Below, piece after piece: positions 12,377 through 21,001 of a stretch of DNA of 64,000 nucleotides; positions within the stretch are counted from its first letter, which is position 1; every line of letters starts with the position of its first letter. The stretch spans positions 2,728,001 to 2,792,000 of the forward strand of contig NZ_AP025628.1 of the NCBI RefSeq assembly GCF_025999835.1. Reading direction: 5' to 3'. The stretch is from Caldinitratiruptor microaerophilus (GTDB lineage: Bacteria > Bacillota > Sulfobacillia > Symbiobacteriales > ZC4RG38). The position numbers and the translations under genes are program-made. The notes beneath the pieces are model-generated. The model searched no databases. It saw only the letters and a program-made list of their open reading frames with translations, and was not told where the DNA came from.

Positions 12377-14017
12377 GTGTACAGCGTCAACTTCGCGCCG
12401 CTCACCCCGATCACCTTCCTGGACCGCACCGCCCTGGTGTTTCCGGAGCGGACCGCGGTCGTCTACGGGGAGCGGCGGTACACCTACCGGCACCTGCGCG
12501 AGCGGGTGCACCGGCTGGCCGCAGCCCTCCGGCAGGCCGGCATCCGGAAGGACGACCGCGTCGCCGTCCTCTGCCCCAACACGCCCCCGATCCTGGAGGC
12601 GCACTTCGGGGTGCCGCTGGCGGGCGGCGTGCTCGTGGCGATCAACACCCGGCTGAGCCCGGGGGAGATCGAGTACATCCTGGCCCACTCGGGGGCCCGG
12701 GTCCTCATCGCCGACGCCGACCTCCTCCACCTCGTGGAACCGATCCGGCACCGGCTGCCGGCCCTCGAGCGGATCGTCGTCGACCCCCTGCCCGGCCAGC
12801 CCGGCTCCTCCGGCAACCCCGGCGATCCCGCGGAGCCCCCCGCCGGCCCCGACACGACCTACGAGGCCTTCCTCGCCGCCGCCCCGGCGGGCGACGTGCA
12901 GCCGCCCGACCTCGACGAGCGGGACATGATCACCATCAACTACACGAGCGGGACCACGGGCAAGCCCAAGGGCGTGGTCTACCACCACCGGGGGGCGTAC
13001 CTGAACGCGCTGGCGGAGATCATCGAGACCGGCCTCACCCCCGGGAGCGTGTACCTGTGGACCCTGCCGATGTTCCACTGCAACGGCTGGTGCTTCCCCT
13101 GGGCGGTGACGGCCATCGGGGCCACCCACGTGCTGCTGCGCAAGGTGGTGCCGGCGGACGTGCAGCGGCTCATCGAGAGCGAGGGCGTGACCCACTTCTG
13201 CGGCGCCCCCACGGTGCTCACCGGCCTGGCCACCCACCTCGAGAGCCAGGGGGCCCGGCTGCCCCACCCGGTCCGGATCATCACCGCGGCGGCCCCGCCC
13301 TCGCCCCAGATCATCCGCACCATGGAGCGGCTCGGCGCCCAGATCACCCACGTGTACGGCCTGACCGAGGTGTACGGCCCGTTCACGATCTGCGAGTGGC
13401 ACGCCGAGTGGGACGAGCTGCCGCTGGAGGAGCGCGCCCGGCTCAAGGCGCGGCAGGGGGTGCCCTACATCGCCCTGGGGGAGCACCGGGTGGTGGACCC
13501 CAAGACCGGGCAGGACGTGCCGAGGGACGGGCAGACGATCGGCGAGGTCTGGCTGCGGGGCAACGGGGTCATGCTCGGCTACTTCGAGAACCCCGACGCC
13601 ACCGAGAAGGCCTTCGCTGGCGGCTGGTTCCACACCGGCGACCTGGCCGTGTGGCACCCGGACGGGTACATCGAACTCAAGGACCGGGCGAAGGACATCA
13701 TCATCTCGGGAGGCGAGAACATCTCCACCCAGGAGGTGGAGAAGGTGATCGCCGAGCACCCGGCGGTGCTCGAGGTCGCCGTCGTCGGCATCCCGGACCC
13801 CAAGTGGGGCGAGGTCCCCAAGGCCTTCGTCACCCTTCGCCCGGGGGCCACCGCCACGGCCGAGGAGATCATCGCGTTCTGCCGGGAGCGCATCGCCCAC
13901 TTCAAGTGCCCCAAGGCCGTGGAGTTCGGCGAGCTGCCCAAGACGTCGACCGGCAAGATCCAGAAGTTCGTCCTGCGGGAGCGGGAGTGGGCAGGGTACG
14001 AGAAGCGGATCAACTGA
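12377..14017 (+). CDS. Acyl-CoA synthetase (AMP-binding, fatty-acid type)
   Basis: Activates a carboxylic acid, probably medium or long chain, to acyl-CoA via an acyl-adenylate. The 546-residue protein has the P-loop signature YTSGTTGKPKGV, the motif YGLTEVYGP, the hinge region WFHTGDLAVWHPDGYIELKDRAKDIIISGGENIS, and the C-terminal lysine in PKTSTGKIQK. GTG start. The FHCNGW motif after WTLPM is typical of the FadD-like/AlkK subgroup. It is monocistronic, with a good terminator behind it. The substrate cannot be read from sequence; acyl-CoA dehydrogenase and CoA transferases elsewhere in the window suggest organic-acid catabolism. Confidence 0.9.
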   Translation: MYSVNFAPLTPITFLDRTALVFPERTAVVYGERRYTYRHLRERVHRLAAALRQAGIRKDDRVAVLCPNTPPILEAHFGVPLAGGVLVAINTRLSPGEIEYILAHSGARVLIADADLLHLVEPIRHRLPALERIVVDPLPGQPGSSGNPGDPAEPPAGPDTTYEAFLAAAPAGDVQPPDLDERDMITINYTSGTTGKPKGVVYHHRGAYLNALAEIIETGLTPGSVYLWTLPMFHCNGWCFPWAVTAIGATHVLLRKVVPADVQRLIESEGVTHFCGAPTVLTGLATHLESQGARLPHPVRIITAAAPPSPQIIRTMERLGAQITHVYGLTEVYGPFTICEWHAEWDELPLEERARLKARQGVPYIALGEHRVVDPKTGQDVPRDGQTIGEVWLRGNGVMLGYFENPDATEKAFAGGWFHTGDLAVWHPDGYIELKDRAKDIIISGGENISTQEVEKVIAEHPAVLEVAVVGIPDPKWGEVPKAFVTLRPGATATAEEIIAFCRERIAHFKCPKAVEFGELPKTSTGKIQKFVLREREWAGYEKRIN

Positions 14018-15613: not shown

Positions 15614-16399
15614 GTGGACAGCCTGCGCGTCGTGTACACGATCTGGTACCGGGAGACGCGGCGCTTCCTGCGGGAACGCAGCCGGATCGCCGGCATGGTC
15701 ATGCAGCCGCTCCTCTACCTCCTCCTGGTCGGCAACGGCATCGCCAGCGCGATGACCTTCCGGGGGGCGCCGGCCGGGGCGGGGGTGGGGTACATCACCT
15801 TCATGTACCCGGGCATCATCGGGATGTCCGTCCTGTTCACCTCGGTCTTCTCGGCCGTCAGCATCATCTGGGACCGGGAGTTCGGCTTCCTGCGGGAGGT
15901 GCTGGTGGCCCCGGCGCCCCGCTGGGCTGTCGCTCTGGGCAAGGTGCTGGGTATCGCCACCGTCTCGACCACCCAGGCCGCCATCCTGCTCGCCCTCGCC
16001 CCGCTGGCCCACGTGCCGCTCACGATCGGCTCCGTCGCCGCCCTCCTCCTCACCTGTGCCCTGATCGCCGTGGCCCTGGGCTCGCTCGGCATCGCCATCG
16101 CCTCCCGGATGGAGTCGATGGAGGGCTTCCAGATGATCATGAACTTCCTCGTCATGCCGATGTTCTTCCTGAGCGGCGCCATGTTCCCGCTCCGGGGTGT
16201 ACCCGACTGGCTCGGCGCCCTGATGCGGGTGAACCCCCTCACTTACGGCGTCGACGCCCTCCGCGGGATCCTCCTCGGGGCGACCCCCGCCGCGCCGTTC
16301 CTCGTCCAGTTCGCGCTCGGCCTCGACCTGGCGGTGGTGGCCGCCCTGGCCCTGGTCCTCCTCGTGATGGGGTCCTGGGCGTTCAGCCGCCAGGGGTGA
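15614..16399 (+). CDS. ABC-2 type exporter permease
   Basis: A 261-residue membrane partner of the upstream ATPase, with six hydrophobic segments and the conserved ABC-2 region FLVMPMFFLSGAMFPLRGVPDWLGALMRVNPLTYGVDALRG. The GTG start is behind GGGAGGTGAT, 4 bases after the ATPase stop. The DrrB-like order regulator-ATPase-permease is typical of self-resistance or multidrug export operons. Confidence 0.9.
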   Translation: MDSLRVVYTIWYRETRRFLRERSRIAGMVMQPLLYLLLVGNGIASAMTFRGAPAGAGVGYITFMYPGIIGMSVLFTSVFSAVSIIWDREFGFLREVLVAPAPRWAVALGKVLGIATVSTTQAAILLALAPLAHVPLTIGSVAALLLTCALIAVALGSLGIAIASRMESMEGFQMIMNFLVMPMFFLSGAMFPLRGVPDWLGALMRVNPLTYGVDALRGILLGATPAAPFLVQFALGLDLAVVAALALVLLVMGSWAFSRQG

Positions 16400-16517: not shown

Positions 16518-16823
16518 GTGGCTGGCAAACGGGTCTCCCTCGCCGATGCGATCGCCCGGATCCCCGACGGCGCCTCGGTGGCCATCGGCGGCAACACGCT
16601 GCACCGCGCCCCGGGCGCGGCCATCCACGAGCTGATCCGGCAGGGCAAGAAGGGGCTGCGCCTGGTCAAGACGGCGGGGGCGTACGACGTCGACGTCCTC
16701 GTCGGCGCCGGGGCGGTCGCGCACGTGACGGCCGCCTACGTCGGCTTCGAGACGCTGGGCCTGGCGCCCCGGTTCCGCCGGGCCGTCGAGTCGGGCCAGG
16801 TGACCCTGTGGGAGCACACCTGA
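16518..16823 (+). CDS. CoA transferase alpha subunit, N-terminal part (ends at in-frame TGA)
   Basis: Residues 1-101 match the N-terminal third of family I CoA transferase alpha subunits: LADAIARIPDGASVAIGGNTLHRAP, then the glycine-rich GKKGLRLVKTAGAYDVDVLVGAGAV. GTG start behind GGGGAGG. Translation stops at TGA codon 102 in the middle of the fold. The same frame continues with homologous sequence for another 170 codons, giving a normal-sized subunit of 271 sense codons if the TGA were read through. Possibilities are a nonsense mutation, a sequencing error, a genuinely split subunit or recoding. Confidence 0.7.
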   Translation: MAGKRVSLADAIARIPDGASVAIGGNTLHRAPGAAIHELIRQGKKGLRLVKTAGAYDVDVLVGAGAVAHVTAAYVGFETLGLAPRFRRAVESGQVTLWEHT

Positions 16824-16857
16824 GCGTCCGTGCACGCAGGGTTGCGGGCCGCAATCC
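16821..16857 (+). other. In-frame TGA followed by a hairpin
   Basis: The TGA (16821-16823) is followed by a hairpin with stem GGGTTGC (16839-16845) / GCAATCC (16851-16857), containing one G-U pair, and loop GGGCC. The first loop G lies 23 bases after the TGA. That geometry falls within the loose bacterial SECIS rules, but GC-rich DNA forms such hairpins often. See findings. Confidence 0.35.
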
Positions 16858-17333
16858 AGGGTGTCTCCTTCATGCCGATGGCCGGTCTGGCCGGCTCCGA
16901 CCTCGTGCGGGCCTCCGGCTTCCGCACCGTCGCCGACCCGTACACCGGACAGGAGTGGGTGGCGATCCCGGCGATCGCCCCGGACTGGTGCATCATCCAC
17001 GTCCACGAGGCCGACGACCAGGGAAACAGCCGCATCGTGGGCCCGAAGTATGACGACGTGCTCAAGGCCCGTGCCGCCCGGAACCTCATCGTGACGGCGG
17101 AGCGGATCGTCGACGGCCGGGAGCTCGCCGCCCGCCCCGAGCTCACGGACATTCCCGGCTTCCTGGTCACGGCCGTGGTGCACGCGCCCGGCGGCGCCTG
17201 GCCCCACGGGTGCCACGGCTGCTACCCGCCGGACGAGGCGTTCTTCGAGGCGTACCTCGCCGCCTGCGCCGACGAGGAGGCGTGGGAGCGCTTCGTGCGG
17301 GAACGGGCGCTCGGGGGGGTCCGGGCGTCGTGA
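16830..17333 (+). CDS. CoA transferase alpha subunit, C-terminal part
   Basis: Continues the alpha subunit in the same frame, starting with VHAGLRAAIQGVSFMPMAGLAGSDLVR. A GTG six bases after the TGA could serve as a restart, so reinitiation could make a 167-residue fragment. Features such as VADPYTGQEWVAIPAIAPDWCIIHVHEADDQGN are typical of the glutaconate/3-oxoacid CoA transferase alpha fold. The stop overlaps the beta-subunit start as GTGA, so the operon organisation is intact. No ribosome site of its own is visible, which argues against an independent gene. Confidence 0.65.
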   Translation: MHAGLRAAIQGVSFMPMAGLAGSDLVRASGFRTVADPYTGQEWVAIPAIAPDWCIIHVHEADDQGNSRIVGPKYDDVLKARAARNLIVTAERIVDGRELAARPELTDIPGFLVTAVVHAPGGAWPHGCHGCYPPDEAFFEAYLAACADEEAWERFVRERALGGVRAS

Positions 17334-18079
17334 GCAGCGGCATGCCCCCGGCAGCCGCGCCCGGCGGGGTCGCCGACCTCATGTGCGTGGCCACCGCCCG
17401 CCTCCTGCGGGACGGGGAGACCGTCTTCTTCGGGCTGGCCTCGCCCCTCGTCATGGTCAGCGTGCTGCTGGCCCGGGCGACCCACGCCCCGAACCTCACC
17501 TTCCTCTCGATCCCGGGGAGCGTGGACGCGGCACTGGAGGTCCTCCCCCGGTCGACCGTGGACGGTCTCCTCCTCACCGGCAGCAAGGGGATCTTTCCCC
17601 TGGCCGACATCTTCGACCTCTCCGCCCGGGGGCGTCTGGACACCGTGTTCCTCAGCGGCGTCCAGATCGACGCCCGCGGGGCCATCAACATGTCGGCGAT
17701 CGGCGGCGATCCGCACCGGCCCCGGGTGCGCCTCCCGGGCGGCGCCGGGTCGGCCCTCCTGCTCCCCACGGCCCGGCGGGCGATCCTCTGGCGCACCCGC
17801 CACGACACCCGCACCTTCGTGGAGCGGCTCGACTTCACCACCGCCAGCGGGAACACCAGCCACGTCGTCACGCCGCTGTGCGTCTTCGAGCGGGGCCCCG
17901 ACGGCCGGCTGCGGGTCGCCAGCATCCACCCGTGGACGAGCCCGGAGGAGGTCCGGGAGCGCACGGGCTTCGCGGTGGAGATCGGCGGGGACGTCCCCGT
18001 CACCCCGGCGCCCACCCCCGATGAGCTGGCGCTCCTGGAGCGGATCGACCCCGGGAGGGTGCGGGCGGCGGAGTTCTGA
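17330..18079 (+). CDS. CoA transferase beta subunit
   Basis: A 249-residue subunit of a family I (glutaconate/ketoacid-type) CoA transferase, which swaps CoA between carboxylic acids. Visible family features are the N-terminal LMCVATARLLRDGETVFFGLASPLVMVSVLLAR, GSKGIFPLADIFDLSARGRLDTVFLSGVQID and GGAGSALLLPTARRAILW. The usual catalytic glutamate of the beta chain is not in its classical EnGxxG context, so activity is uncertain. GTG start overlapping the alpha-subunit stop. The frame is intact, unlike its partner. Confidence 0.82.
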   Translation: MSSGMPPAAAPGGVADLMCVATARLLRDGETVFFGLASPLVMVSVLLARATHAPNLTFLSIPGSVDAALEVLPRSTVDGLLLTGSKGIFPLADIFDLSARGRLDTVFLSGVQIDARGAINMSAIGGDPHRPRVRLPGGAGSALLLPTARRAILWRTRHDTRTFVERLDFTTASGNTSHVVTPLCVFERGPDGRLRVASIHPWTSPEEVRERTGFAVEIGGDVPVTPAPTPDELALLERIDPGRVRAAEF

Positions 18080-18084
18080 ACCAT

Positions 18085-18999
18085 ATGGCAGGCTCGATCC
18101 TTTCCGGCACGGGCGCGGGGGCACTGTTCGCCGTGCTCGCCGCGCTCTCGTTCGCCTTGTGGAACATCTACCTGCAGCGCGGGCTCGAAAAGGGCGGCGG
18201 ACCCCGCCTGTCCATGCTCACGCTGTCGCTGAGCGTCACGGCCGCGTTTCTGCCGCTCAGCCTGTGGCTCGGCTCGCGCGGCGCGCTGCCCCCCGTCAGG
18301 GCCGCGGGGGTGGCCTGGTTTCTGGTCGCCGGCCTCCTGACCGCGGCCGCCGGGCCGCTCTGCGCCGCGCACGCGACGCGCCGCATCGGGGCGACCCGGA
18401 CGACCGCCCTGCGCCTCCTGGATCCGTTCTTCGCCTACCTGCTCGCCTCCGTCTTCCTGGGGGAGAGGCTGGGCGGGCGCGCGGTCGGAGGGATCGTCCT
18501 GATCGTGGCGGCACTCCTCCTGCTGCGGCTCGACGGCCGGCGCGGCGCCGCCGCGTCGGGCGGCGGGGTCGCCGCCGGGGTGGCATTCGCCGTGGCGGCG
18601 TCGCTTCTCTTCACCCTCGGCAGCGTGGCCCGGAAGGCCGGGCTCGGCATCGTGCCCTCGGCCGTCGTCGCCGGGGCGGGCGAGGGCGTCGCCGGCGTGC
18701 TGGCCGTCCTGCCCGCGATCGCGGCCGCGCGGGCGTGGGGCGAGCTGCGGGCCGCCTTCCGGCCGGAGGCGCTCGACCTGTGGTGGTCCGGGCTCTCCGC
18801 CGCCGCCGGGACGCTCTTCCTCAACCTGGCCCTTCAGCGCGCCCCGGTGCCGGTGGCCGTCGCCCTGCGCAACACGTCGCCCTGGTTCGCGCTTGTCCTG
18901 GTGCCGCTCCTCATCGGCCGCCAGCACCGCCCCGGCCCGTGGATCTGGGCCAGCACCGCCCTGCTGACGGCCGGGATGCTCCTCATCGTGACGGGCTGA
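18085..18999 (+). CDS. EamA/DMT-family transporter
   Basis: A 304-residue inner-membrane protein with ten predicted helices in two repeated halves. The first half ends IGATRTTALRLLDPFFAYLLASVFLGERLGGRAVGGIVLIVAALLLL and the second ends VALRNTSPWFALVLVPLLIGRQ, the two EamA signatures. Such proteins export metabolites such as amino acids or purines. The gene starts 6 bases after the CoA transferase beta stop and its 3' end overlaps the convergent adenine deaminase gene by 17 bases. Substrate unknown. Confidence 0.85.
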   Translation: MAGSILSGTGAGALFAVLAALSFALWNIYLQRGLEKGGGPRLSMLTLSLSVTAAFLPLSLWLGSRGALPPVRAAGVAWFLVAGLLTAAAGPLCAAHATRRIGATRTTALRLLDPFFAYLLASVFLGERLGGRAVGGIVLIVAALLLLRLDGRRGAAASGGGVAAGVAFAVAASLLFTLGSVARKAGLGIVPSAVVAGAGEGVAGVLAVLPAIAAARAWGELRAAFRPEALDLWWSGLSAAAGTLFLNLALQRAPVPVAVALRNTSPWFALVLVPLLIGRQHRPGPWIWASTALLTAGMLLIVTG

Positions 19000-20758
19000 G
19001 CGAAGCTGAGGCCGCCAGCCCCACCAGCCGGCCGGAGCCGGGGTCGACGAGGCCCCGGTCGGTGAGCTTCAGCTCGGGGATGACCGACAGGGCCAGGAAC
19101 GAGAGTGCCATGAAGGGCGAAGCGATGGTCACGCCCAGGGAGCGCGCCGCCGCCTCCAGCCGGTCCAGCTCCTCCACGACCTCCGGCAGGGGCCGCTGCG
19201 ACATGAGCCCGGCGACGGGCAGGGCGAGGCGGCTCAGCACCCGGCCGCCCAGGACCGCGGCGAACCCGCCGCCGGTCTCGGCGACGGCCCGGGCGGCCGC
19301 GAGGATGTCGTCATCGGACGTCCCCGCCACGATCACGTTGTGTGCGTCGTGGGCGACCGTCGAGGCCAGCGCCCCGCGCTGCAGCCCCAGGCCCTGCAGG
19401 AGTCCGACCCCGACCCCGCCCCCGCGACCGTGCCGCTCGATCACCACGAGCTTCACCAGGTCCCGCTCGGGGTCGGCCACGACCTCCCCGCCACGCACGG
19501 CGGGCTGGACCACCAGGCTCCGGGTGACGATCTGCCCGGGCACGAGGCCGATCGCCCGCACCGGCCCGCCCGGGTCGGGCAGGCGCAGCCGCTCCGGACC
19601 GAGCGCCGGCAGCCGCACGGTGTTCAGGAGGCGCGGGTCGGTGGGGACGGAGACGTCGACCAGGAGGTGCCCGTCCCGCGCGACCAGCCGGCCTTCCTTG
19701 AACACGAGGCGGGCCTGAAGGGTCTCGGGGTCGAGCACCGCCAGGTCGGCCCAGTACCCCGGCGCGACAGCGCCCTTGCGCCGCAGGCCGAAGTACCGGC
19801 TCGGGTTCAGGGTCGCCAGCTGCACGGCGGCGGCGACGTCGAGCCCGAGGGACACCGCCCGGCGCACGGCGTGGTCGACCCCGCCCTCCCGGACGAGATC
19901 GTGCGGGTGGCGGTCGTCGGTGACGAAGCAGAACCGGCTGCGGACCGCCGGAGTCACCAGCGGCAGCAGGTCCGCCAGGTTGCGGGCTGCGGACCCCTCG
20001 CGGATGAAGACCATCATGCCGAGGCGCAGCTTCGCCCGGGCCTCCTCCACCGCCACCGACTCGTGGTCCGACCCGACCCCGGCCGCCACGTACGCCTGCA
20101 GGCCCCGGCCGCCCAGGAGGGGCGCGTGGCCGTCGACCACCTTGCCGGTCCGCTCCGCCCGCCACGCCTTCTCCAGCTCCGGCGGGTTGCCGGCGACCGT
20201 GCCGGGGAAGTTCATGAGCTCCGCCAGGCCCACGACGCGCGCTCCGGCCAGCACCGGGTCCAGATCGTCGGGCCCGAGCTCCGCGCCCGCCGTCTCCAGC
20301 GGACTGGCGGGGACGCAGGAGGACGCGGTCAGGTACACGTCCAGCGGCAGGCCCCGCGTGGCGGCGAGGGCCGCCTCGAAGGCCACCGCCCCGACCACGT
20401 TCGCCCACTCGTGCGGGTCCCACACCACCGCCGTGACGCCCCGGGGGACCACCGCCCGGGCGTACTCGCGCGGCTCCACCAGGGACGACTCCAGGTGCAC
20501 GTGGGCGTCCACGAAGCCGGGGACCACGAGGCCCCCGCCGAGGTCGAGCACTTCCCGGGCCTCCGCGCCCTCGACCGCCTCGCCGACCCCGGCGATCAGC
20601 CGCCCGGCCAGGAGCACGGGGCCGGGCAGGATCTCGCCGGTGAAGACGTTCACGACCCGCACCCCGCGCAGGAGCACCGTCCCGGGCTCCCGCCCCGCCG
20701 CCACCGCCACGGCGCGGCGGACCTCGTCGGGCTGAAGCGGTGTTCCGAAGTCGGCCAT
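18983..20758 (-). CDS. ade: Adenine deaminase
   Basis: Converts adenine to hypoxanthine plus ammonia for purine salvage. The 591-residue protein has the amidohydrolase metal motif PGFVDAHVHLESSLV, followed by VTAVVWDPHEWANVVG, GHAPLLGG, GSDHESVAVEEA and FVTDDRHPHDL, in the order of AdeC-type enzymes. The C-terminal domain carries VAHDAHNVIVAGTSDDDI. The start is the ATG 9 bases after AGGGAGG; another ATG two codons earlier is only 3 bases from it. I looked for a purine riboswitch upstream and saw none. Confidence 0.93.
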   Translation of the reverse strand: MADFGTPLQPDEVRRAVAVAAGREPGTVLLRGVRVVNVFTGEILPGPVLLAGRLIAGVGEAVEGAEAREVLDLGGGLVVPGFVDAHVHLESSLVEPREYARAVVPRGVTAVVWDPHEWANVVGAVAFEAALAATRGLPLDVYLTASSCVPASPLETAGAELGPDDLDPVLAGARVVGLAELMNFPGTVAGNPPELEKAWRAERTGKVVDGHAPLLGGRGLQAYVAAGVGSDHESVAVEEARAKLRLGMMVFIREGSAARNLADLLPLVTPAVRSRFCFVTDDRHPHDLVREGGVDHAVRRAVSLGLDVAAAVQLATLNPSRYFGLRRKGAVAPGYWADLAVLDPETLQARLVFKEGRLVARDGHLLVDVSVPTDPRLLNTVRLPALGPERLRLPDPGGPVRAIGLVPGQIVTRSLVVQPAVRGGEVVADPERDLVKLVVIERHGRGGGVGVGLLQGLGLQRGALASTVAHDAHNVIVAGTSDDDILAAARAVAETGGGFAAVLGGRVLSRLALPVAGLMSQRPLPEVVEELDRLEAAARSLGVTIASPFMALSFLALSVIPELKLTDRGLVDPGSGRLVGLAASASLSPSR

Positions 20759-21001
20759 CGGCATGAGCCTCCCTGAGATAGCGATTGCGGGCGGTTCAGC
20801 CACGACGAGACCGTGTTCCGGCACCGGCAGCCCGCCGGCCTTCCCGCATCCGGTCCCTGGTGGCTCTTTCCGGTTCCACCAGTTCTACTTTACGCCTGCC
20901 GGCACGGAGTGCAAATGCCGGCCCCGGGCGCTTTTGCAAGGGGGTGCCCCAATCGGGTGCAGTCGATTCCTCCTGACGGGACGCCGTCGTCCCTGGTGGA
21001 A

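Follow-up and report, generated by a model that had tools for sequence, protein, structure and literature searches.

An alpha/beta gene pair with an in-frame TGA

The window, a 64,000-nucleotide stretch of DNA from Caldinitratiruptor microaerophilus, carries a two-gene locus in which the first gene is crossed by a TGA codon in its own reading frame. The locus and its neighbourhood comprise the following features.

12377..14017, + strand: putative AMP-forming acyl-CoA synthetase (AMP-binding match, 1.1e-90), a likely pathway partner
16518..17333, + strand: alpha subunit of a CoA-transferase-fold enzyme, 271 residues in one frame from a GTG start, with a putative selenocysteine (Sec) at 102
16812..16814, + strand: Glu99 codon, the invariant acidic residue of an [E/D]xxU/C motif
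16821..16823, + strand: in-frame TGA, codon 102, putative selenocysteine codon in a conserved TGA/Cys column
16839..16857, + strand: bacterial SECIS-like hairpin of 7 bp, or of 8 bp with a 3-nt loop
17330..18079, + strand: beta subunit of the same fold as alpha, intact, its GTG start overlapping the alpha stop
17510..17512, + strand: Ile61 codon of beta, where true CoA transferases have their catalytic Glu

Both subunits match Pfam CoA_trans (PF01144) in profile searches (alpha, 1.9e-23; beta, 2.8e-16), beta additionally matches AibB (2e-39), and the locus thus combines the class I CoA-transferase fold with a two-subunit gene pair. The TGA at codon 102 and the undamaged beta subunit, both noted in the sequence-only reading, were confirmed, as was the continuation of the alpha frame, which extends for 169 sense codons to its own TGA stop at 17331-17333. 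The tight GTGA overlaps that the same reading had ascribed to the flanking genes hold for alpha and beta, but not for the ABC permease upstream, which ends at 16399 and thereby 118 bases short of alpha, or for the EamA-type open reading frame downstream, which starts at 18085, beyond the end of beta.

In a first search, column 102 was Cys (TGC or TGT) or again TGA among the nearest homologs, at 44-64% identity, with TGA in loci L002, L004 and L017, while more remote homologs had Asn, His or Ser, and one at 33% identity (L070) had TGA. A scan of 398 genomes from the window's phylum, Bacillota, added 14 TGA loci, and a scan of 395 genomes from the phylum of a deltaproteobacterial MAG (G044) added 21 more, so that the putative Sec form occurs in 15/398 and 22/395 sampled genomes, respectively. 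Altogether, 40 distinct TGA loci (the window and 39 other genomes) stand beside about 37 homologous loci with Cys. Each of the 40 contains exactly one in-frame TGA, always at the same alignment column and never replaced there by TAA or TAG, and this column is shared down to about 33% protein identity. The flanking motif [E/D]xxU occurs in the variants EHTU, EHSU, ETMU/ETIU, EGSU, DHTU, EYPU, DSTU and DQVU; its acidic position, Glu99, is invariant in alignment set A1 and is E or D across all Sec groups. With residue 102 left out, a quickly built tree of 78 alpha subunits, some of whose branches are long, requires at least three changes between Sec and non-Sec forms. Viral contigs were also searched, and no relatives were found among them. 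Acetoanaerobium noterae was considered as a Sec carrier and rejected, since its residue is Cys.

The sequence-only reading had favoured a nonsense mutation or a sequencing error as the simplest explanation, in which case the gene would be decaying and beta would be intact by chance. A single TGA in a single assembly would indeed look identical, and a truly broken-looking relative does exist: the Asn-type alpha of L196 has two in-frame TAA codons and is probably a true pseudogene or an assembly fault. Decay does not, however, account for the recurrence of TGA at one column in 39 other genomes, where neither TAA, TAG nor a second TGA is seen. Protein identity is similar on both sides of the TGA, and dN/dS downstream of it lies between 0.04 and 0.36 where computable, many synonymous distances being saturated, which points to purifying selection past the TGA. 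The sel genes and the covarying hairpin described below likewise speak against decay. We therefore judge it very improbable for the window gene, and for the family as a whole the comparative evidence refutes it.

Selenocysteine machinery and the SECIS-like hairpin

The host genome, a single contig of 3.6 Mb, encodes selA and selB, both above their cut-offs in the profile search, as well as tRNA-Sec, whose gene has the anticodon tca (UCA). It also has two selD genes (C1:2013538-2014461 and 1648211-1649131), one of which adjoins selA and each of which contains one in-frame TGA. Non-Cys residues in relatives together with a genome lacking sel genes had been named as the outcome that speaks against selenocysteine; both checks, of residue 102 in close homologs and of the genome, gave the opposite result. 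Across the family, selA was found in 39 of the 40 genomes that carry an alpha TGA. The exception, a draft assembly (G711) with a TGA-bearing alpha (L184) and no selA candidate found, is a counterpoint to the selenocysteine reading. As selA is also common among non-carriers, this co-occurrence is necessary support and not proof.

The hairpin described in the sequence-only reading is present as claimed, with arms GGGTTGC (16839-16845) and GCAATCC (16851-16857) enclosing the loop GGGCC (16846-16850). It starts 15 nt after the TGA, and its loop begins at the 23rd nt. The bSECIS model of a 2026 review specifies a stem of 4-16 bp, a G at the first or second position of a 3-9 nt loop, a location 16-37 nt after the UGA and an energy of at most -7.5 kcal/mol; with -9.6 kcal/mol and its loop start at 23, the window hairpin conforms to this model. 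Compared with synonymous-codon shuffles, it is not significant alone (p 0.10), and p < 0.05 was reached by 7/19 Sec loci of the first set versus 1/37 Cys loci. The mean energy of the best hairpin was -9.8 kcal/mol in these 19 Sec loci and -4.0 kcal/mol in the 37 Cys homologs (Mann-Whitney p 1e-6), although the loci are related to each other and pooled p-values are therefore optimistic. The apical loop lies 21-23 nt past the UGA without exception in the first set (19/19) and in 19/21 loci of the second. The energy cut-off of -7.5 is reached by 26 of the 40 TGA loci, the other 14 ranging from -4 to -7.4 kcal/mol; fixed-register scoring under-rates the EGSU group, whose 3' arm lies two bases out of register. 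Among eight sequences aligned in one register, four of seven pairs have changed on both sides in a compensatory manner and 96% of cells pair. The covariation score of 0.58 was attained by none of 500 shuffles and fell to 0.08 or less when the register was slid by 1-3 bases.

Two further explanations accept that the downstream frame is translated. According to the first, translation stops after residue 101 and restarts at a GTG six bases past the TGA, the two chains then assembling into a split subunit. This GTG does exist, at 16830, and termination-reinitiation is common in operons. The idea fails at family level: ATG, GTG or TTG follows in frame within five codons in only 17 of the 40 TGA loci and is absent elsewhere for 15 codons, and a restart would leave both the Cys of the homologs and the SECIS-like hairpin unexplained, so that we give it hardly any chance. 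The second explanation, by which UGA is read as Trp or another amino acid through a code change or leaky termination, has nothing specific in its favour and appears similarly implausible: many genes here, alpha and beta included, end in TGA, relatives have Cys and not Trp, TGA occurs at no other column, and sel genes are present.

Close homologs with Cys or TGA, the complete sel machinery and a conserved, covarying hairpin together reverse the earlier order of preference, in which decay or error ranked first and selenocysteine was merely speculative. We consider it highly probable (about 93%) that UGA 102 encodes selenocysteine and that alpha is an intact gene for a selenoprotein. SelB and tRNA-Sec would decode UGA 102 as Sec, guided by the hairpin downstream. 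Alpha resembles known prokaryotic selenoproteins in its UGA, its downstream bSECIS and its Cys homologs, and differs from most of those listed (PMC13188914) in that they are thioredoxin-like or redox enzymes.

The putative active site and its distribution between subunits

The predicted alpha structure (pLDDT 92.7) matches IpdA (Z 35.8), AibA (Z 34.9) and GctA (Z 34.4). Residue 102 opens a predicted helix (102-114) shortly after a strand (96-99), and a helix N-terminus is a usual site for a reactive thiolate. Aligned to IpdA, residue 102 falls on the position that differs between 6co6 (wild type, Glu) and 6coj (Ala), the latter bearing the PDB title "IpdAB E105A COCHEA-COA complex". Sec102 thus corresponds to IpdA Glu105, whose standing as the key residue of IpdA we take from this title and sequence difference.

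IpdAB is a ring-cleaving hydrolase of steroid degradation, described as a retro-Claisen or retro-aldol C-C hydrolase (PDB 6CO6, 6CO9, 6COJ, 6CON). It shares the fold of the window pair (rmsd 1.9 over 270 residues) and, like it, has a beta subunit without the catalytic Glu (Gly57 in IpdAB beta). The two differ at the alpha position, which is Glu105 in IpdA, Sec102 in the window and Sec or Cys across the family; identity is 31%, and no steroid genes stood out near the window pair on casual inspection. By sequence, the nearest solved relative of both subunits is AibAB (PDB 5MZW and others), again no CoA transferase but a 3-methylglutaconyl-CoA decarboxylase. AibA has Gly at position 102, and AibB has Cys56 where the window beta has Ile. 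A change of this Cys56 did not abolish activity, so in the CoA-transferase fold a thiol in the active site is not necessarily catalytic. IpdAB and AibAB, both of them without the beta Glu, are known as a hydrolase and a decarboxylase, respectively.

Class I CoA transferases such as GctAB, the glutaconate CoA-transferase (PDB 1POI), have the fold and the alpha/beta gene order of the window pair. In those that truly transfer CoA, the covalent intermediate is made by a Glu of beta (Glu54 of GctB). By column comparison, this residue matches Ile61 of the window beta, which also aligns with Cys56 of AibB, and Sec/Cys-type pairs have Ile, Val, Leu or Tyr in place of the Glu. The beta Glu was present in none of 52 pairs with Sec or Cys in alpha and in all nine pairs with Asn, Ser or His (Fisher 6e-11, kinship not corrected for), and every further Asn-type pair of a second scan retains it. 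A third type combines Glu at alpha column 102 with a beta subunit without Glu (L144, L146, L153, L158), as in IpdAB. In L153, this Glu-type alpha is naturally fused to its beta in one chain of about 600 residues.

This pattern looks like that of one scaffold with two alternative seats for the working residue: beta, where it is Glu, and alpha, where it is Glu, Cys or Sec. The window enzyme may accordingly be pictured as a heterodimer that is built on a class I CoA-transferase fold but no longer has the beta Glu, its key active-site residue having moved into alpha. Because beta lacks the catalytic Glu whenever alpha has Sec or Cys, the pair is probably no CoA transferase but an acyl-CoA-processing enzyme with a selenol or thiol as key residue in alpha, and the label "CoA transferase", which annotation would give it, is unsupported. 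Sec102 would hold the place of IpdA Glu105 and provide a selenol where the Cys homologs provide a thiol. The enzyme presumably binds an acyl-CoA as substrate, and Sec102, with Glu99 nearby, could act as nucleophile or acid/base in its cleavage or processing. That Sec102 takes a catalytic part in acyl-CoA processing is, in our view, reasonably likely.

Gene neighbourhood and significance

Homologs of the window's acyl-CoA synthetase, 59-65% identical, adjoin alpha and beta in 13 Cys-type loci of Chloroflexota/Thermomicrobiota. Six loci, three of them Cys-type (L025, L031 and L179) and three others (L173, L176 and L178), have CoA-disulfide-reductase-like genes directly beside the pair, the A. 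noterae neighbour giving one NCBIfam CoA-disulfide reductase match above cut-off; in nine Sec loci, HdrABC-like genes are located no more than about 9 kb from alpha. Neither kind of neighbour was found at 43 outgroup loci, most of them with 4 kb flanks. Together with the synthetase, these neighbours hint that an acid is first activated to its CoA ester and that thiol redox chemistry is involved in some lineages. The disulfide-reductase-like and HdrABC-like genes also lend some weight to another function for the selenocysteine, by which Sec102 would be redox-active or protective, for example by forming a selenenylsulfide with CoA that is resolved by a disulfide reductase. No such neighbour was found at the window gene or at most Cys loci, and residue 102 aligns with the key Glu of IpdA, which makes a purely redox or protective Sec102 rather unlikely within the selenocysteine reading.

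More broadly, and as a tentative proposal that we hold at slightly below even odds, the pair may represent a widespread selenoenzyme family whose catalytic residue changed subunits, from beta to alpha, and was replaced by a selenol. This selenol would attack a CoA-bound substrate through a covalent Se intermediate, which the CoA-disulfide-reductase-like or Hdr-like partners might reset. None of the 119 prokaryotic selenoprotein families catalogued in 2026 (PMC13188914) has the CoA-transferase fold, term searches of the deep-Sep, 2005 and 2006 papers likewise turned up no such protein, and NCBIfam offers generic CoA-transferase models only. Among the openly accessible journal papers searched, no Sec-containing CoA transferase was found, although one may have been reported elsewhere. 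On these grounds, we propose that alpha probably represents a new selenoprotein family.

Should this hold, Sec in the active site of a CoA-transferase fold would extend selenium chemistry into acyl-CoA metabolism. Most selenoproteins are redox enzymes, many of them with thioredoxin-like folds. The present case would furthermore suggest that a catalytic residue can move between subunits and that Glu, Cys and Sec serve as alternatives at one site. Many annotations would have to be corrected, as a standard gene caller would truncate such genes at the TGA. Since the family is common and its Cys forms occur in cultured bacteria, among them Acetoanaerobium noterae and Ktedonosporobacter rubrisoli, Sec and Cys can be compared directly.

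Several neighbourhoods deserve mention in their own right. In L166 (4206-9873), an operon-like HdrC-B-A-C-B-like electron-carrier cluster lies beside the Sec pair, and similar clusters occur in L165, L167, L168, L170-L172 and L174. In several of these Hdr-like clusters, a further CoA-transferase-like pair and an MFS transporter are present, and L168 has a PrdR-like sigma-54 regulator; together with the Sec pair, such a cluster looks like an undescribed anaerobic pathway. In A. noterae (L179:1952-16714), the Cys-type pair directly follows the CoA-disulfide reductase gene, with a microcompartment locus to one side and methylthioribose genes to the other. A 2.6-Mb A. noterae record (NZ_CP154629.1) is labelled plasmid pTPELB2, is chromosome-sized and almost unannotated, and may be a mislabelled chromosome. 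An adenine-deaminase-like gene lies near the Sec pair in two Sec clades (window, 18983-20824; L169:9825-11624; L175:6468-8270).
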